In this document: positions 982 through 25,772 of the stretch, piece by piece
How positions within the stretch are numbered: position 1 is the first letter of the stretch
Layout of the letters: each line of letters starts with the position of its first letter
DNA from: Pelosinus fermentans JBW45
Lineage (GTDB): Bacteria; Bacillota; Negativicutes; DSM-13327
Assembly: GCF_000271665.2 (NCBI RefSeq)
Contig: NZ_CP010978.1
Span: 3,130,501-3,194,500, forward strand
Direction of reading: 5' to 3'
DNA: 64,000 bases
Position numbers and translations under genes: made by a program
Notes under the pieces: generated by a model
Seen by the model: the letters and a program-made list of their open reading frames with translations, nothing else
What the model was told of the DNA's origin: nothing
The model's database searches: none

Positions 982-2283
982 TTAGCACTTTATCTCTGCA
1001 TTTGTTCGACTGTAATAATAATGAATTACAAATAGACTGATGATATAAAAGGCAATAAAACCATATAAGGCCATGGCAGGCGATCCAGTAGTCCGTGTTG
1101 ACCAACCAAAAGCTATGGGAACAAAAAACGCACCATAAGCAGCAACGGCTGAAATAAAGCCAATAGCTGGCGCTGCTTCTTTAGGGTTAAATATTTTGGA
1201 AGACATGCCAAACGTAGAACCGCTGGCTGCCCCAGTAGTAACAAATAAAATTAATGCCATGATAAAAAATACGACAAAATTATGTTGGTTCATAAAAAAG
1301 ATAACTCCTAAGGTAGCACCACTCATAATAAAAATAGACCCAAAGCTTACTCGCGCCCCACCGTATTTATCAGCAGCCCAGCCTCCTATAGGACGAGAGA
1401 GAGCACCTACGAGCGGTCCCAAAAAAGCATACTGCAACGGGTTAATGCCAGGAAATTGCAACTTTATCAATAAAGGAAACACTGCGGAATAACCAATAAA
1501 AGAACCAAAAGCAATGGTATAGATAAAACTCATGACCCACATATGTTTACAGCTAAAGATGCTGAATTGTTCACGAAGGGATGCTTTAGCAGTCTCCAGG
1601 TTATTCATACCAAAAAACGCGGCTACTGTGATCACTACAATAGGAATGATCCATATAAAAGCAGCATTTTGCAGCCAAACACTTTTAGCACTCCCACCAT
1701 TCACTAAAAGTTGAGGCTCACCACCGATACTGCCAAAGATTCCAAAGGTAATAACAAACGGTACCACAAACTGTACAACACTGACGCCTACATTACCCAA
1801 TCCCCCATTAATTCCTAATGCAGTTCCCTTCAATTTCTTAGGGAAAAAGAAACTAATGTTACCCATAGACGATGCGAAGTTTCCTCCACCTAAGCCACAT
1901 AAAATAGCCCATATCATCATCGTTCTATAGGTTGTAGTGATATCCTGTACTGCATATCCAATACCAATCGCTGGAATTAAAAGAGATGCTGTGCTAATCA
2001 CCGTCCAATTCCGTCCACCAAAAACAGGTATTACAAAAGCATAAAAAATTCGTAACGTTGCACCTGATAATCCTGGCAAAGCAACTAAATTAAACAACTC
2101 CTCCGTACTGAATGTGAACCCTGCACTGTTAAGATTAACCGCTACAACCGACCATAACACCCAAATGCAAAAAGATACGAGTAGAGCCGGAACAGAAATC
2201 CATAAATTTCGGTTCGCAATTTTTTTTCCCTCCTGCTCCCAAAAAACAGGGTCCTCCGGTTTCCATATTTTCAATTTATACAA
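982..2283 (-). CDS. narK: NarK-type nitrate/nitrite transporter
   Basis: 433-residue major facilitator superfamily transporter with about 12 hydrophobic segments. The start WKPEDPVFWEQEGKKIANRNLWISVP and the segments ANFASSMGNISFFFPKK and GGLGNVGVSVVQ are the nitrate-signature type of NarK/NarU proteins, which exchange nitrate and nitrite across the inner membrane. The start is TTG (2283-2281), behind AAAGGGGG with 8 bp spacing. It is followed after 21 bp by narG, so import and reduction of nitrate form one transcription unit. The upstream region contains a pair of TAGGG-N4-CCCTA-like boxes. Function is confident; whether it works as antiporter or symporter cannot be told from the sequence. 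Confidence 0.94.
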   Translation of the reverse strand: MYKLKIWKPEDPVFWEQEGKKIANRNLWISVPALLVSFCIWVLWSVVAVNLNSAGFTFSTEELFNLVALPGLSGATLRIFYAFVIPVFGGRNWTVISTASLLIPAIGIGYAVQDITTTYRTMMIWAILCGLGGGNFASSMGNISFFFPKKLKGTALGINGGLGNVGVSVVQFVVPFVITFGIFGSIGGEPQLLVNGGSAKSVWLQNAAFIWIIPIVVITVAAFFGMNNLETAKASLREQFSIFSCKHMWVMSFIYTIAFGSFIGYSAVFPLLIKLQFPGINPLQYAFLGPLVGALSRPIGGWAADKYGGARVSFGSIFIMSGATLGVIFFMNQHNFVVFFIMALILFVTTGAASGSTFGMSSKIFNPKEAAPAIGFISAVAAYGAFFVPIAFGWSTRTTGSPAMALYGFIAFYIISLFVIHYYYSRTNAEIKC

Positions 2284-2355
2284 TGACTGGTCCCCCTTTA
2301 GTAAGTGTGTAATATATATTGTCAGATTTATTTTAATATTTTGTCGATGAAAAGT

Positions 2356-2399
2356 AATGTAGGGAATCCCCTATATCGATTAAGGGGATCCCCTACATT
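2356..2399. promoter_or_regulatory. Paired NreC-like boxes upstream of narK
   Basis: The first box, TAGGGAATCCCCTA at 2360-2373, fits TAGGG-N4-CCCTA exactly. The second, AAGGGGATCCCCTA at 2382-2395, fits with one mismatch. Their starts are 22 bp apart, about two helical turns. The whole is also a large inverted repeat: 17-base arms at 2356-2372 and 2383-2399 with one mismatch. TAGGG-N4-CCCTA is the published binding consensus of the staphylococcal nitrate regulator NreC. The site lies about 75-125 bp upstream of the narK start. The regulator itself is inferred; no nreBC genes are in the window. Confidence 0.7.
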
Positions 2400-2435
2400 G
2401 GCTATAAAAAATTATTTATGTCATTATTGTTAACT

Positions 2436-3383
2436 TTACCAATATATATACTCCGCTACTTGCGCCTTAGGATTCAAAATTACATCTTTCAATACCCAGT
2501 TTTTGAATACCTGATAACCAGTTCTATCAACAATGTATCCTACATGTTCCTTTCCTCCTGGTGCATCTTTGTCTATATAATTATGGACATAGGCATAGGT
2601 ATTTTTAATGATCTCTAAAACACTAGCTTCATCAATCCACTTGATAAACGGCTGCGCAATTCTAGGGTTCTTTCTTCCCGTTCTTCCCATAATTACAAGC
2701 TGATATAATTTATTGGAACTTCTCGTCCAAGCCCCTGTTGGGCACTTTAATACACATTCTCCGCAGCCAATGCATTTATCTGAATGCCTGACTACCTTAA
2801 AGTTTTCAAATTTCAAGGCGCCAGCAGATTTTTTTTCACAAGCTTTTACACATGCCTGACATCCAATGCACCGATAGGAATCATACTGTGGCTCGTTCAT
2901 GCCAATAATGCCAAAATCATTCATTCTTGCCTTAATACAATCATTAGGACAACCAGTAAGAGCAATTTTCACATGATAATCATTAGGAAAAATCACTTTC
3001 TCTATCCGTTGAGCAAAAGCACTTGTATCAAAATTAGCAAACTGGCATACCCGACTCCCAATACAGGCCGCAACATTTCTGGTACCTGCTGCAGAATATC
3101 CTGCATTAGAATCAGTTTGGTTAACTTCAAGTCCGTCGATTAGACTTTGAATTATGGCATTCACCTCTGCCATTTTTTCAATATCAATACCTGGAATCTC
3201 AAAACCTTGTCGCGTTGTTATATGAATGGTACCATTACCAAATGTTTCTGCCACGTACTTAACCGTATCCAGATATTTTGCTGCCATTTCTCCCCCTGGA
3301 ACCCTAATCCTAATAGCAGTCTTATATCTTTCCTTTGTTATACGAAAGGCATTCTTTTTTAGTATTTTTGTATTTATATCCAT
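2436..3383 (-). CDS. asrC: Anaerobic sulfite reductase subunit C (siroheme)
   Basis: 315 residues. Siroheme/4Fe-4S reductase that carries out the six-electron reduction of sulfite to sulfide together with AsrA and AsrB in the cytoplasm. The siroheme ligand pattern is present as CIGSRVC (C-x5-C) and CPNDC (C-x3-C), near residues 107-150. Two ferredoxin-type 4Fe-4S motifs follow: CIGCQACVKAC and CIGCGECVLKC. The N-terminal half is a nitrite/sulfite reductase ferredoxin-like domain (TTRQGFEIPGI). It is the last gene of asrABC, 19 bp after asrB. The DNA between it and narK holds the narK regulatory boxes and no obvious terminator. Confidence 0.95.
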   Translation of the reverse strand: MDINTKILKKNAFRITKERYKTAIRIRVPGGEMAAKYLDTVKYVAETFGNGTIHITTRQGFEIPGIDIEKMAEVNAIIQSLIDGLEVNQTDSNAGYSAAGTRNVAACIGSRVCQFANFDTSAFAQRIEKVIFPNDYHVKIALTGCPNDCIKARMNDFGIIGMNEPQYDSYRCIGCQACVKACEKKSAGALKFENFKVVRHSDKCIGCGECVLKCPTGAWTRSSNKLYQLVIMGRTGRKNPRIAQPFIKWIDEASVLEIIKNTYAYVHNYIDKDAPGGKEHVGYIVDRTGYQVFKNWVLKDVILNPKAQVAEYIYW

Positions 3384-3402
3384 ACATACTGCTCCTCCTT
3401 AA

Positions 3403-4197
3403 TTAATCAATAAAACTTTTAGCTTTCACATAATTAAACACAGGTCCCTCAAGACAAATATAAGTATCGTCAATTTTACAGTGTCCGCATTTGCCAACGC
3501 CACAGCACATTTTTCTCTCATAAGACACCCATATATTTTCTTCCCTAATCCCTCTTTTTAAAAATTCTGCCACAGTAAAACGAATCATTACAGGCGGACC
3601 TACAACAATCACATTTGCCATTGATTGATTTTCTATGGAGATATCCTGTATATAATTTGTAATAAGACCCGTATTGCCTGTATACGTTTCATCATCTGAA
3701 CCATCTACTGTTACTATAACATTTATTGTCCTTTGCCACTTCTCAAAGTCAGCTTTATAAAGTATATCTTTAGGTGATTTGAATCCAGCAATCAAGGAAA
3801 AGACTGTCACTTCATGAACATTATCAGCAAAGTAATCTACAACGCCTTTGACTGGTGCTAACCCCGTCCCACCAGCAGCAACAATAACTTCCTTCGATTT
3901 AAACAAGTCAATGTTAAAACCATTACCATAAGGCCCCCTTAGGAATAGCACCCCACCTTCCTGTAGCTCATGAATCGTATTGGTAACCAGCCCCACTCTG
4001 CGAATTGTCAATCCAACATACCCTTCACCAATTTCACTCACAGATATGGGTGCTTCGCCAAATTTAGGAATGGATACTTCAAAAAACTGTCCAGGCTTTA
4101 CATCACCCTTATACTCCATTAAGAAAGTATAATCAATAGCAGTATGAGGAATTATTTTTATAATTCGGGATTTAAAAGGCAGATACGTATTGCTCAT
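3403..4197 (-). CDS. asrB: Anaerobic sulfite reductase subunit B (flavin/2Fe-2S)
   Basis: 264 residues, ferredoxin-NADP reductase fold. AsrB passes electrons from NAD(P)H via FAD toward AsrC. The FAD-binding segment (LTIRRVGLVTNTIH), the NAD-binding VAAGGTGLAPVKG and a C-terminal cysteine cluster (CCGVGKCGHC then C of YICLEGPVF) that would bind 2Fe-2S are in the expected order. This resembles dihydroorotate dehydrogenase electron-transfer subunits (PyrK), but the asrA-asrB-asrC gene order settles the assignment. The start codon overlaps the asrA stop by one base (TAATG), which suggests translational coupling. Confidence 0.94.
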   Translation of the reverse strand: MSNTYLPFKSRIIKIIPHTAIDYTFLMEYKGDVKPGQFFEVSIPKFGEAPISVSEIGEGYVGLTIRRVGLVTNTIHELQEGGVLFLRGPYGNGFNIDLFKSKEVIVAAGGTGLAPVKGVVDYFADNVHEVTVFSLIAGFKSPKDILYKADFEKWQRTINVIVTVDGSDDETYTGNTGLITNYIQDISIENQSMANVIVVGPPVMIRFTVAEFLKRGIREENIWVSYERKMCCGVGKCGHCKIDDTYICLEGPVFNYVKAKSFID

Positions 4198-5189
4198 TAT
4201 TTCTCCTCCACTATGCTCTTAAGTCTATTTGCACAATGCGCAATCGAAATATACTCTGGACATGCATCATCACATCTTCCACACCCGACACACATATGGT
4301 AGCCAAAGCGCTTTTTATAATCATGAAACTTATGCATCACTCTAAATCGCATACGATCTCCTTGCTTTTTGCGGAAAGAATGTCCTCCGGCCATATCCGT
4401 GAAGCCATCAACCATACAGGAAGACCAAACTCGTCTTCGCTCTCCCATGTTTTTATTTTCTTTATAAAAGATATCTTGCATCGAGAAACAACTACAAGTT
4501 GGACATACAAAACTACATCTTCCACAACCGATGCAGCGAGATGAATATTCTTCCCAAAAAACAGATTGTGCCAGCCCTTTTGATAGCTCTTTCGGTATAG
4601 ACACCTTCGTTTTATTTTGCATGACGAAACGTGGAGAAAGGTCTACTACCTTTTCATCCAGCCGACCCATCTCTTTATTATTAATTCCGACATATACATA
4701 ATCACCCTCAGGACGTATAAACATATCATATTCATCCGTAATATTGGTTCCCATACTGGCGCAAAAACAGTTTGCAAAACTTTCATAACATTCGATGAGA
4801 CAAAATCTTACTTTTTTACGAAATACCTTATAGTAAGGATCTTCACATCCATTTCTTAGATAGATATCATCAAGCCTTTTTATGCCATGTATGTCACAAC
4901 TTCTCAAGAATAGCAGTATTTTTTTATCATGAACCTTGGGTTCTGTCCAATTATCCTCGTTAAAATAAAATAAAGTCTCAGTAATGGGTAGAAGAATTTC
5001 TTTAGCAGAAAAATTAGCTTTTATCGTCAGTTCGACTTCTTCCAACTTTGTTATTTTTTGATACCTAACTGAATCCGTATTAGTAAAAGCCCCCTTCCCC
5101 AAGAGAGCTACGGGAGCAAAAATTAGATACTCCTTTTCTAGTTCTTTTAAGTACTGGTTAAACCTTATCCCGGTTACTTTATATGCCAT
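4197..5189 (-). CDS. asrA: Anaerobic sulfite reductase subunit A (ferredoxin-like)
   Basis: 330 residues. Iron-sulfur electron-transfer subunit of anaerobic sulfite reductase, related to the 4Fe-4S beta subunits of group 3 [NiFe] hydrogenases. Two 4Fe-4S motifs occur in the C-terminal third: CIGCGRCSFVCPTC and CVGCGRCDDACPE. It is first in asrABC; its own upstream region (5190-5535) contains one pair of NreC-like boxes and, farther up, a single perfect box. This promoter arrangement is shared with narK and is unusual, because asrA is normally thought of in terms of sulfite or sulfur control. Confidence 0.94.
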   Translation of the reverse strand: MAYKVTGIRFNQYLKELEKEYLIFAPVALLGKGAFTNTDSVRYQKITKLEEVELTIKANFSAKEILLPITETLFYFNEDNWTEPKVHDKKILLFLRSCDIHGIKRLDDIYLRNGCEDPYYKVFRKKVRFCLIECYESFANCFCASMGTNITDEYDMFIRPEGDYVYVGINNKEMGRLDEKVVDLSPRFVMQNKTKVSIPKELSKGLAQSVFWEEYSSRCIGCGRCSFVCPTCSCFSMQDIFYKENKNMGERRRVWSSCMVDGFTDMAGGHSFRKKQGDRMRFRVMHKFHDYKKRFGYHMCVGCGRCDDACPEYISIAHCANRLKSIVEEK

Positions 5190-5331
5190 TATTTTTTTCC
5201 TTTCCTACGTTTGTTTTTTTCTTATGAATCCTGCTTTTACCCTTGCCTCTTATAAGAACCTTATTATTCTATAGTTCTTTTGTGCAATGAATAGATATCA
5301 GGCTAATTTTAATATTTAACTACTAAAAAGT

Positions 5332-5374
5332 AATGTAGGGAATTCCCTCTATTGATAAAGGAAATTCCCTACAT
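5332..5374. promoter_or_regulatory. Paired NreC-like boxes upstream of asrA
   Basis: Box 1 TAGGGAATTCCCTC at 5336-5349 has one mismatch to TAGGG-N4-CCCTA. Box 2 AAGGAAATTCCCTA at 5358-5371 has two. The start-to-start distance is 22 bp, the same as in the narK pair. The outer bases AATG...CATT are also shared with the narK site. The pair is about 145-185 bp upstream of the asrA ATG. Shared sequence and spacing suggest that one dimeric regulator acts on both operons. Confidence 0.65.
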
Positions 5375-5496
5375 TGTTTATTTTAATAAATTTCTATTCC
5401 TAGAGATTACACCATTTTAATTATTGGCAAAAAAAGTAACACATTGTTTAGAATGTATCTACCACCAATAATGAGGGTAGATGGCTAAAAGTAATC

Positions 5497-5510
5497 TAGG
5501 GAATTCCCTA
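5497..5510. promoter_or_regulatory. Single perfect TAGGGAATTCCCTA box
   Basis: A perfect 14-bp palindrome that fits TAGGG-N4-CCCTA with no mismatch. It is preceded by AAAAGTAATC, like the flank of the other boxes (AAAAGTAATG). It is 161 bp upstream of the paired boxes and 26 bp past the stop of the DUF438 gene. Together with the paired boxes it occupies most of the 346-bp gap 5190-5535, in which I see no gene. Confidence 0.6.
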
Positions 5511-5535: not shown

Positions 5536-6765
5536 TTAGTCTGTAATTCGCTTTTCTCCCGTAATCGCTTGAATCGGCTTAATATCCTGGGTAACTTCTA
5601 AAACGCCAGAGAAATTTTCGTCCTTGTCTCTTACCGCAAAATAACGAATATATACGAATTTATCTCCCATCTTGATCCAAAAGTCTTCATTGTCCTTTTT
5701 CCCGCTTTTAAAGTCCTCCACTATTTTTTCTACCACGTAGGCACTCGCTGGAGGATGGCAGTTTTCTACCTTACGACCTATAATCGTACGGGTGCGTGGG
5801 AAAATTCGATCCTTGGTCGTAGAGAAAAACTTAACGACTCCATTTTTATCAACAAAAGTGATATCAACTGGTAAATGCCGATAAATCAATTCAATTTCTT
5901 GGGGTGATAAAAAACCAGTGTCAAACTTAACATGGCCGCTTGTATTATTTTCATTGAGTGGATTTATAACGTCTTCCTTCACATCCTCCCGATATGGTTT
6001 CCAGCCATACTGAGGTTCCACTAAGCAATAACCAATTTCATCACTGTCGAGTAGAGCACGGTACCATTCATCTTCTGATAGTGTTTCCATCGCCATTGGC
6101 AGGAATATTTTTTCTTCTTTAAAAATCATTTCCTCAACTTGTACTAATGTTTCTTCCGTTTTAGCAATTAACTCCTCTTTTATAGGTGATTGATAAGCAA
6201 CAGCCAAGCTTTTTGCTTCTTTTAACAAGTTTCTGATTTTATCGTCGACGCCCCACATGACTTTAGGTGGCCCAGTAATTTCATACTTCTCCAAAAAAGG
6301 AAATATAAGATCCTCTTTTCGCCTATAATGTTTATCAACGTCCCATAGCAAGTTTATTTTTTCAGTCAATTGTAAAGCTAATGTTTTTTCAGCCTGGTTC
6401 GACGCCTGCTTTAGTTCGATGAGGATAGGCCTAATTTCCTGATCTATTAGCTTTTGCACTGCTTGATTCTCTGCTATAAAAATTGCTGCTGGATGTCCAT
6501 GCTCTACCGACAATTCCGGATTTTTCTCTAATGCATCTCGGAAGACCGCAGCATGAACATCGCAGAGTCGTTGGACTTCTTCCACTGGTAACCCCTCATT
6601 AATCAGTCCTTGTTCAATCAAAGAAAGTTCAGATGGATCCATACCTACTGCAATTTTATCAAATTTGTCTTTGACGTCCTGAACTGATTTTCCCTGATGA
6701 AGTTCCAAGATTATTTCTTTTAAAGCCTTTTGCCTGTACTCTCGATTATTAATTAGTTCACTCAT
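5536..6765 (-). CDS. DUF438 / hemerythrin-like / PAS domain protein
   Basis: 409 residues. Residues about 1-75 are a DUF438 domain; about 85-235 are a hemerythrin-like HHE region (VEHGHPAAIFIAENQ, DKHYRRKEDLIFPF, EEKIFLPMAMETL) that would bind a di-iron centre; about 290-400 are a PAS domain (YRHLPVDITFVDKNGVVKFF). Proteins of this architecture are common in anaerobes and are presumed oxygen, NO or redox sensors or scavengers; no enzymatic activity is established that I know of. No signal peptide or output domain is visible. Its position next to the nar/asr genes, with a perfect NreC-like box just behind its stop, makes a role in handling nitrogen oxides plausible but unproven. Confidence 0.85.
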   Translation of the reverse strand: MSELINNREYRQKALKEIILELHQGKSVQDVKDKFDKIAVGMDPSELSLIEQGLINEGLPVEEVQRLCDVHAAVFRDALEKNPELSVEHGHPAAIFIAENQAVQKLIDQEIRPILIELKQASNQAEKTLALQLTEKINLLWDVDKHYRRKEDLIFPFLEKYEITGPPKVMWGVDDKIRNLLKEAKSLAVAYQSPIKEELIAKTEETLVQVEEMIFKEEKIFLPMAMETLSEDEWYRALLDSDEIGYCLVEPQYGWKPYREDVKEDVINPLNENNTSGHVKFDTGFLSPQEIELIYRHLPVDITFVDKNGVVKFFSTTKDRIFPRTRTIIGRKVENCHPPASAYVVEKIVEDFKSGKKDNEDFWIKMGDKFVYIRYFAVRDKDENFSGVLEVTQDIKPIQAITGEKRITD

Positions 6766-24491: not shown

Positions 24492-25772
24492 TTATAGCAC
24501 ATTGATCCCTGCTGCTAAATTGGCCGATTCAATGGCCTGATGAGCTAATTCATTAGCTTGACCAAGAGTCGTCATCGTCTGATCGGTATTATGAAAGCCC
24601 ATACTATTTTCAGCTGACACAATATCCCACATCCACTGGGCTTTACGCACCAATTCCCTAGCTTTGGCAAGTTCAGCCTGATTGACATTTGGCGTATCAC
24701 CAGCTTTTCGTATCGCTTCATGAGCTTTAGCTATATTTAAGCCTGCAGTATGCTGCAGTAAAAAAGTTTGGTCTTGGATTGTCTTAACTCTTTCGGATAA
24801 CCATTCTGTTCCTTGACTGTGACATGGAGAACAAGAGGCATCAAGAGTCTTTAATGGGCTTGTAATAAAATGGGATGTATATTTCTGCCCATCTTTACGC
24901 ATATACGGCATATGACAATCGGCACATGATACCCCAGCCTTACCATGAGTACCATTCGCGAATGTTTCATAATCAGGATGCTGCGCTTTTAGCATTGGTG
25001 CTTTAGAATCTGGATGCTCCCAATCCTGAAGGAAGTTATTAGGTTTTTCAGCATAATAAGCATACATTTCCTCCGGCTTAAAGCCTTTATCCCAAGGAAA
25101 AACTACCCGCATGGTACCAGGCTCAAAATAATATTCAGAATGGCATTGAGCACATACATACGTGCGCATTTCTTCTCTTGTTGCCTTACTCAAATCGATA
25201 CCCCGCCGTTCTTGTGCTTCAATAAATGCTGGATTAATGACACGTAAGTTCATCGTTTCTGAGTCATGACATTGGGCGCAAGTAACAGGATGCTTACTCC
25301 TTTCTAATAATTCCCCTAAAGGTTTATTGGCATACCCCCAGCCTGATTCTTTATAGAATTGTTCCACATAAGGAGTTTTACAGGTAATGCACGCACCTTT
25401 ACTAGCGGGACCAATCCGTTTACTATGAAGTAAATCTTCTACAGCATATACATGACCCCGATCCTCAGTATAATCCTTACTAAAAGGCATACCTTTAAAG
25501 TTTGTGAAAATTTCTGGCTGCATATCTGATTTTTGTACATTCACACTGCCTCCATAACCTGTAGGAGAAGGAGATACCTCGGCCATCTTTCGATAGCTTT
25601 CATATTGAAGGGGATAGACTTTTCCCCATACTGCTGCATCATATTCTCCTGCGGGGATGGGTGAGGCTTTGACTGTTGCTGCCGGCTTAACCCCAATACG
25701 TACAGCAACAAAACCAAAAAAGATGACTGCTACACCCAACAAGGCAATTAAGGTCTTTTGCATGTTACTCAA
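24492..25772 (-). CDS. nrfA: Ammonia-forming cytochrome c nitrite reductase, catalytic subunit
   Basis: 426 residues, exported by the uncleaved or cleaved hydrophobic segment at 7-27. NrfA reduces nitrite to ammonium with six electrons. Five heme sites are visible: the active-site CITCK (C128, C131, K132) and four CXXCH at C165, C207, C283 and C314. GTHGKAGVSCADCHMPY is the family signature. Its start overlaps nrfH by 8 bp. It is the last gene of the sensor-ccm-nrf block and is closed by a bidirectional terminator. Confidence 0.97.
   Translation of the reverse strand: MSNMQKTLIALLGVAVIFFGFVAVRIGVKPAATVKASPIPAGEYDAAVWGKVYPLQYESYRKMAEVSPSPTGYGGSVNVQKSDMQPEIFTNFKGMPFSKDYTEDRGHVYAVEDLLHSKRIGPASKGACITCKTPYVEQFYKESGWGYANKPLGELLERSKHPVTCAQCHDSETMNLRVINPAFIEAQERRGIDLSKATREEMRTYVCAQCHSEYYFEPGTMRVVFPWDKGFKPEEMYAYYAEKPNNFLQDWEHPDSKAPMLKAQHPDYETFANGTHGKAGVSCADCHMPYMRKDGQKYTSHFITSPLKTLDASCSPCHSQGTEWLSERVKTIQDQTFLLQHTAGLNIAKAHEAIRKAGDTPNVNQAELAKARELVRKAQWMWDIVSAENSMGFHNTDQTMTTLGQANELAHQAIESANLAAGINVL

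Follow-up and report, generated by a model that had tools for sequence, protein, structure and literature searches.

In Pelosinus fermentans JBW45, the genes asrABC, by name a sulfite reductase, lie directly upstream of the nitrate respiration gene narK, which raises the question of whether both operons answer to one regulator and, if so, which reaction AsrABC carries out. The window (the whole stretch of 64,000 nucleotides that was analysed) belongs to a genome of 5,380,816 bp in one contig, referred to as G000, which was searched as well. Both narK and asrA are preceded by a pair of short palindromic boxes spaced 22 bp apart. Very probably, these pairs are tandem operators of NreC, a response regulator whose gene belongs to the nar operon itself; through NreC, nitrate would activate nar and asr together. 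The initial annotation had proposed one NreC-type operator for narK and asrA, and this proposal is well supported, as nreABC lies in the nar operon and the pairs are conserved within Pelosinus.

The boxes are located on the upstream side of genes on the minus strand. In the gap between asrC and narK, the proximal box of the narK promoter (2360..2373, minus strand; sense TAGGGGATTCCCTA) is accompanied 22 bp upstream by the distal box (2382..2395, minus strand; sense TAGGGGATCCCCTT). In the gap between a DUF438 gene and asrA, the asrA promoter has a proximal box (5336..5349, minus strand; sense GAGGGAATTCCCTA) and a distal one (5358..5371, minus strand; sense TAGGGAATTTCCTT), again 22 bp apart, and a single box follows at 5497..5510 (minus strand). 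A pattern scan recovered all five boxes (2360, 2382, 5336, 5358 and 5497) where the initial annotation had placed them. The box at 2360, TAGGGAATCCCCTA, is a perfect match to TAGGG-N4-CCCTA, the consensus of staphylococcal NreC, as is the one at 5497, while one mismatch is present at 2382 and at 5336, and two at 5358. The outer AATG...CATT, described earlier for these sites, is found on both pairs but not on the single box, which is flanked by AATC...TTGT.

Single boxes were rejected as evidence, since their counts are at or below chance: 14 in the window with up to two mismatches, against 15.5 expected, and 59 in the genome with up to one mismatch, against 130 with a reversed control. The genome holds two further perfect single boxes, one inside a mechanical open reading frame (ORF) and one just past a LysR-like frame; four of 55 one-mismatch sites were inspected, three of them inside mechanical ORFs. 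Pairs with 22-bp spacing occur twice in the window against 0.08 expected, a count reached in 2 of 100 shuffles. Genome-wide, a search with a second pair pattern (up to three mismatches) returned the narK and asrA promoters and nothing else, with no match in the control.

The presumed regulator is encoded close by. Past narK, the gene order (in L010) is narG, narH, narJ, narI, a 144-aa GAF protein, a 356-aa PAS kinase and a 219-aa receiver-GerE regulator, followed by moaA, mobB, moaC, a mog/MOSC gene and a molybdopterin oxidoreductase; the nar and molybdopterin gene names were assigned by inspection. In other words, nreA-nreB-nreC stands directly behind narI, and the order narK-G-H-J-I-nreA-B-C recurs in the relatives G002, G003, G005 and G006. 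NreA exceeds the cut-offs of GAF_2/GAF, and its best matches in the PDB are NreA structures (E 9e-21 to 1e-18), which are presumably staphylococcal in origin. NreB contains PAS, HisKA_3 and HATPase_c domains, while NreC combines a PF00072 receiver with PF00196 (GerE), both over cut-off, its nearest solved relatives being VraR, NarL and DevR. The proposal would have fallen with the lack of an NreC-like regulator in the genome; instead, an NreC-type receiver-GerE protein is encoded in the nar operon, as part of the nreABC genes at its end.

The putative oxygen-sensing part of NreB is less uniform. The motif CX2CX11CX2C, which has the cysteine spacing of staphylococcal NreB and would supply four cysteines to a [4Fe-4S] cluster, is present in NreB of JBW45, G002, G003 and two distant genomes, G619 and G422. 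In G005 and G006 its first cysteine is missing, with four other cysteines kept nearby, and the motif was not found in NreB of G746, G735, G466 and G776. This variation of the iron-sulfur ligands (compare L010 8915-9985 with L036 13559-14653, L037 13536-14630 and L220) suggests that oxygen sensing may be altered or lost in G005, G006 and G746. Since JBW45 is described as a strict anaerobe (PMC4582584), the oxygen input may in any case matter less here than in staphylococci.

Conservation was followed in eight Pelosinus genomes, G000 to G007, including one metagenome bin (G003). AsrA, NreA and pairs with up to one mismatch occur in the same five of them (G000, G002, G003, G005 and G006), and none of the three was found in G001, G004 and G007. 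Across 380 genomes of the class, NreA was detected at E 1e-10 or better in five, all of them Pelosinus, and in all five a 22-bp pair precedes both asrA and narK. In the promoter alignment, the proximal box is almost invariant and is followed by CATTACTTTT (with one exception, an HPP promoter), the distal box is more variable, and TAAAAT or TATAAT stands at a constant distance. The cluster of G003 is present in two copies. The second copy (L038 15262-17225) is a diverged nar-asr cluster in which asrA is interrupted, asrB is split and the promoter pairs are retained; it could be a decaying copy or the product of a mixed bin.

The same arrangement was sought in another phylum, where NreA occurs in 8 of 398 genomes, six of them with NreA-sized frames. 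Six stretches of 20 kb were scanned for boxes with up to two mismatches each, 15-40 bp apart. In G746, G619 and G422, the order narG-H-I-nreA-B-C is found, with NreC 53-62% identical. In G746, narK (64% identical) is preceded by a 22-bp pair. In G619 and G422, a pair with 21-bp spacing stands upstream of narG, and one with 22-bp spacing upstream of a gene behind nreC that weakly resembles narK (24-26% identical). These five were all the pairs that the scan found; by the same criteria, no pair was present in the three stretches with nreA-nreC-nreB but without nar.

The position of the pairs relative to the predicted promoter is equally regular. Among 18 tabulated pairs, including those of G746, G619 and G422, 15 are followed by a hexamer that agrees with TATAAT in at least five of six positions and begins exactly 24 nt beyond the proximal box; in one more it begins at 23 nt. 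The two remaining pairs lack one at that distance; each is a second pair, farther upstream, at narG (one in G619, one in G422). The table omits three Pelosinus rows whose sequence between box and -10 repeats that of a listed row (asrA and narK of the first G003 copy, and narK of G002). When offsets from 8 to 43 were scanned in 13 rows, leaving out three near-duplicate Pelosinus rows and the two upstream narG pairs, offset 24 was occupied in 12 rows and each of the other 35 offsets in two at most. Counted by promoter family, of which there are about six, the hexamer stands 24 nt, and once 23 nt, past the proximal box. The upstream narG pairs themselves are 22-bp pairs about 100 bp further from the gene (L221 14087-14120 in G619 and L222 14122-14155 in G422).

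In the window, the putative -10 hexamers are TAAAAT at 2330..2335 (narK) and 5306..5311 (asrA), both on the minus strand and 24 nt beyond the proximal box. If the hexamer is taken as -12 to -7, the box centres would fall at -43.5 and -65.5. With this predicted start, the features of a class-II tandem activator are all found, namely a proximal site near -40, a weak -35 element and another site facing the same side of the helix; the layout would thus be class-II-like, with the proximal box abutting a poor -35. A comparable arrangement is described for the DevR/DosR promoters of Mycobacterium tuberculosis (PMC3029386), where a NarL-family regulator uses closely packed sites, the proximal site overlaps the -35 and a secondary site is bound cooperatively. 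The sequence, the signals and the genes are different from those of Pelosinus.

A consistent mechanism can be proposed on this basis. Nitrate would lift the block that NreA exerts on the kinase NreB, and NreB would then phosphorylate NreC. Two NreC dimers would occupy the boxes, which are two helical turns (22 bp) apart, the proximal one next to the poor -35, and transcription would be activated; the tandem arrangement fits the cooperative binding of two dimers that the initial annotation had suggested. One such promoter would drive narK-narGHJI-nreABC, amounting to positive autoregulation, a second would drive asrABC and, in relatives, a third would drive an HPP-family gene. We infer the binding, the phosphorylation, the nitrate signal, the cooperativity and the transcription starts from the layout of genes and sites.

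The staphylococcal NreABC system offers the closest precedent. According to reviews, nitrate relieves the inhibition of NreB by NreA, and phosphorylated NreC binds G+C-rich palindromes of nar, nir and narT. In Staphylococcus aureus, the nitrate reductase genes are reviewed as being followed by nreABC. In both systems, nreABC immediately follows the nitrate reductase genes within a single operon and encodes a GAF protein (NreA, in Pelosinus a putative nitrate sensor) and a PAS kinase (NreB, in Pelosinus with a predicted iron-sulfur cluster). Pelosinus differs in its predicted targets, which would be narK-nar-nre and asrABC (with HPP in relatives) and include no nir operon. It differs further in the molybdopterin genes that follow in the operon and in the tandem 22-bp pairs with their fixed distance to the -10.

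Several observations weigh against this interpretation. The best NCBIfam match of NreA, NF038250, reaches 108.1 bits against a cut-off of 175. The 13 scanned promoters amount to about six families, because the Pelosinus promoters are related by descent, and the upstream narG pairs of G619 and G422, left out of that scan, speak against the 24-nt rule. Over 14 genomes, 22-bp pairs with up to two mismatches also arise by chance, with 27 places against 9 for a reversed control. With up to one mismatch, all pairs but one lie at nar-linked or asr promoters, and the exception is a one-mismatch pair of G422 that lies apart from nar. Among the matches listed by a pattern search across the class, those from outside the genus carry two to three mismatches, and the control counts are similar by eye.

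The most tangible competing explanation holds that the pairs act, alone or in addition to a protein operator, as RNA hairpins, that is, as intrinsic terminators or attenuators before each gene. On the sense strand, the two pairs of the window can indeed fold into hairpins of 17-20 bp (-27.8 and -29.3 kcal/mol; z -7.6 and -6.2), and three more Pelosinus pairs do so with z from -5.6 to -9.4. A T-rich tail follows the hairpin, and terminator-like sites number 6 against 2.9 expected. The symmetry of the alignment points the same way, with 90% of cells paired for the hairpin (reached in 4 of 500 shuffles) against 70% for two separate palindromes, and a covariation score that the shuffles reach in 2 of 500 cases for the hairpin and in 500 of 500 for the palindromes. 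These are also arguments against a protein operator, at least as the only constraint. Three hairpin pairs are changed on both sides, a number reached in 119 of 500 shuffles, and the departures within pairs 1-16 consist of 12 G-U cells and 6 unpaired cells. However, the -10-like hexamer lies downstream of the pair at a fixed distance, and a transcript starting from there would omit the hairpin. Moreover, three distant NreC-linked promoters form no hairpin (z -0.2, -1.8 and -0.6) while the boxes, their spacing and the -10 distance persist, and a hairpin does not require a constant spacing of 22 bp. The position of the -10 and the absence of the hairpin from the distant promoters make this explanation very unlikely. 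The hairpin may still terminate transcription of the gene upstream, and the mirror symmetry of the pairs may instead come from two bound dimers whose outer half-sites are strong and whose inner half-sites are weak.

A different LuxR-type response regulator might also use the boxes in place of NreC, given that the genome has nine GerE matches, eight of them over cut-off, and that related regulators could have such sites in common. This is highly improbable, as NreA follows the distribution of the pairs exactly among the eight Pelosinus genomes (other GerE proteins were not compared) and pairs are found again at the nar promoters of distant genomes whose nreABC genes are linked to nar.

The single box at 5497 has a separate history. 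In G005 and G006, the DUF438 gene and asrA are separated by an HPP-family gene (164 and 177 aa), which is preceded by a 22-bp pair and, 24 nt past the proximal box of that pair, by a perfect TATAAT; the G006 protein matches the TM_HPP domain PF04982 with 135.7 bits (cut-off 27.2). In G002, residues 1-41 and 145-177 of the HPP protein remain behind a single box. In JBW45, the remnant behind the single box comprises the final six codons, YPHYWW, and the stop (5459..5479, minus strand). The alignment shows that the single box unites the left half of the distal box with the right half of the proximal one, corresponding to a deletion of 22 bp. The second copy of G003 has lost the HPP gene and retains two degenerate boxes with a spacing of 18 bp. 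Because the box halves are fused and an HPP remnant follows, the box at 5497 is best understood as what is left of an HPP transcription unit that has been lost. A purposeful third asrA operator at 5497 was also considered and rejected, as the alignment favours a relic. The HPP family includes a plastid nitrite transporter candidate, and the title of the 2014 paper cited for it also names cyanobacteria; by family membership, the HPP protein of the relatives is a candidate nitrite transporter.

Outside the window, 529 asr loci were found, of which the best 80 were followed; some lie on contigs with less than 500 bp upstream, and Acididesulfobacillus acetoxydans is not among them. Within 500 bp before asrA, a pair was present at 2 of these 80 loci, both from one Pelosinus bin, and the other 78 had no NreC pair upstream. 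The same bin was the only place where narG or a strong narK match flanked asr, a weak narK-like match being present in L064. No NreA was found in any of the 21 named genomes searched from this set (a search run without a positive control), and no 22-bp pair at the asr loci of the 13 further class genomes with an AsrA match, 13 of 13. The persistence of the boxes in related species, on which the initial annotation had staked its claim, thus holds within Pelosinus (5 of 5) but not at asrA outside the genus. Control of asr by NreC as a general trait was rejected on these counts, and within the loci seen (A. acetoxydans excluded), the link between asr and NreC appears to be a Pelosinus trait. In the titles and abstracts of the open-access literature, a scope that leaves subscription papers mostly outside, no report of NreC control of asr was found.

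What AsrABC does under such control is a question of its own. All three subunits are encoded on the minus strand and lie above the cut-offs of their Asr equivalog models: asrA (4197..5189; TIGR02910, 506.1 bits, cut-off 323.15), asrB (3403..4197; TIGR02911, 436.7 bits, cut-off 288.6) and asrC, the sirohaem subunit (2436..3383; TIGR02912, 543.9 bits, cut-off 324.1). The name Asr is therefore correct for the family, and the three-subunit family TIGR02910-02912 is shared with the AsrABC of Salmonella and clostridia. The initial annotation went further and spoke of sulfite reduction under a nitrate regulator, a wording that takes the asr annotation at face value, whereas the HPP context, the staphylococcal parallel and the induction seen in A. 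acetoxydans point to nitrite or nitrosative chemistry.

In A. acetoxydans grown on nitrate, AsrABC is reported to rise 29-fold as transcript and 195-fold as protein, and its authors propose that it is a nitrite reductase (PMC10949509). That system resembles Pelosinus in the strong increase on nitrate and in the proposed function. It differs in that no regulator is named (NreC and regulator have no occurrence in the main text of PMC10949509) and in that asr lies far from nar, judging by gene numbers, whereas in Pelosinus the two are adjacent and have an operator in common. For Staphylococcus carnosus, the title of Fedtke et al. 2002 names the operons of nitrate reductase and of nitrite reductase, together with narT, as the targets of NreBC; this parallel suggests that AsrABC stands in the place of nitrite reductase. 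The genes near asr are narK, narGHJI, nreABC and the molybdopterin genes, with the HPP-family gene in two relatives, and by inspection no sulfur gene was recognised in the cluster. The genome has four NIR_SIR matches, whose frames range from 225 to 525 aa; a typical NirB is longer.

Asr is likely part of nitrite handling. By analogy, we lean towards a role of AsrABC in the NreC regulon that would consist mainly in using NADH to reduce nitrite, or related nitrogen species, in the cytoplasm. A more specific version, in which AsrABC is an NADH-linked cytoplasmic nitrite (or hydroxylamine or nitric oxide) reductase recruited along with an HPP-type nitrite transporter to substitute for a NirBD-type enzyme, is evenly poised. 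A nitrite function has to contend with the reported ability of Salmonella asr mutants to reduce nitrite still (PMC10949509), and with the presence of NrfA in all eight Pelosinus genomes, so that nitrite reduction can be explained without AsrABC. JBW45 has two genes for NrfA-type cytochrome c nitrite reductases (PF02335), at 24531-25640 of the window (minus strand) and at G000:C1:951656-952807, which means that AsrABC is not the sole nitrite route. AsrABC as the only nitrite reductase was accordingly rejected. The nrfA genes were rejected as regulon members as well, the genome-wide search having found pairs only at narK and asrA and no tandem NreC pair at either nrfA gene.

It is possible, though rather unlikely, that NreC binds the boxes while AsrABC reduces or detoxifies sulfite in a manner coupled to nitrate respiration. 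The Asr equivalog scores of all three subunits suit such a role, nitrite would already be covered by the two NrfA proteins, and the asr operons of Clostridium perfringens are ascribed to sulfite in the literature. According to the 2024 paper (PMC10949509), AsrABC has never been purified or assayed with nitrite. Against a sulfite role stand the nitrate-related companions of the cluster, none recognised by inspection as a sulfur gene, and the higher level of asrABC on nitrate than on sulfate in A. acetoxydans (PMC10949509). Salmonella and clostridial asr genes are described differently, as sulfite-induced or, in C. perfringens, as unchanged between sulfur sources.

Some neighbouring features complete the picture of the locus. 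The gene narK (982..2283, minus strand), of the nitrate/nitrite transporter family, heads the run narK-narG-H-J-I-nreA-B-C with the molybdopterin genes, which continues before the window. Directly upstream of the asr cluster, a gene at 5536-6765 (minus strand) encodes a DUF438-hemerythrin-PAS protein, which could be an oxygen or nitric oxide sensor; it is also found in G002, G003 (second copy), G005 and G006. Elsewhere in the genome, a stretch of 44 bases is repeated without change at no fewer than five places (G000:C1:501272, 1890589, 2350252, 2460978 and 2660832) and is probably part of a multicopy transposon.

The same operator on asr and on nitrate reductase would give a concrete regulatory reason for the 2024 proposal that AsrABC is a nitrite reductase. 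The promoter grammar of NreC, a 22-bp pair with the -10 at 24 nt, recurs in two separate lineages and may allow targets to be predicted in anaerobes, while the HPP remnants display in sequence the decay of a putative third regulon member. If the proposed function is true, some of the metagenome asr genes that are counted as sulfite reducers would belong to the nitrogen cycle.

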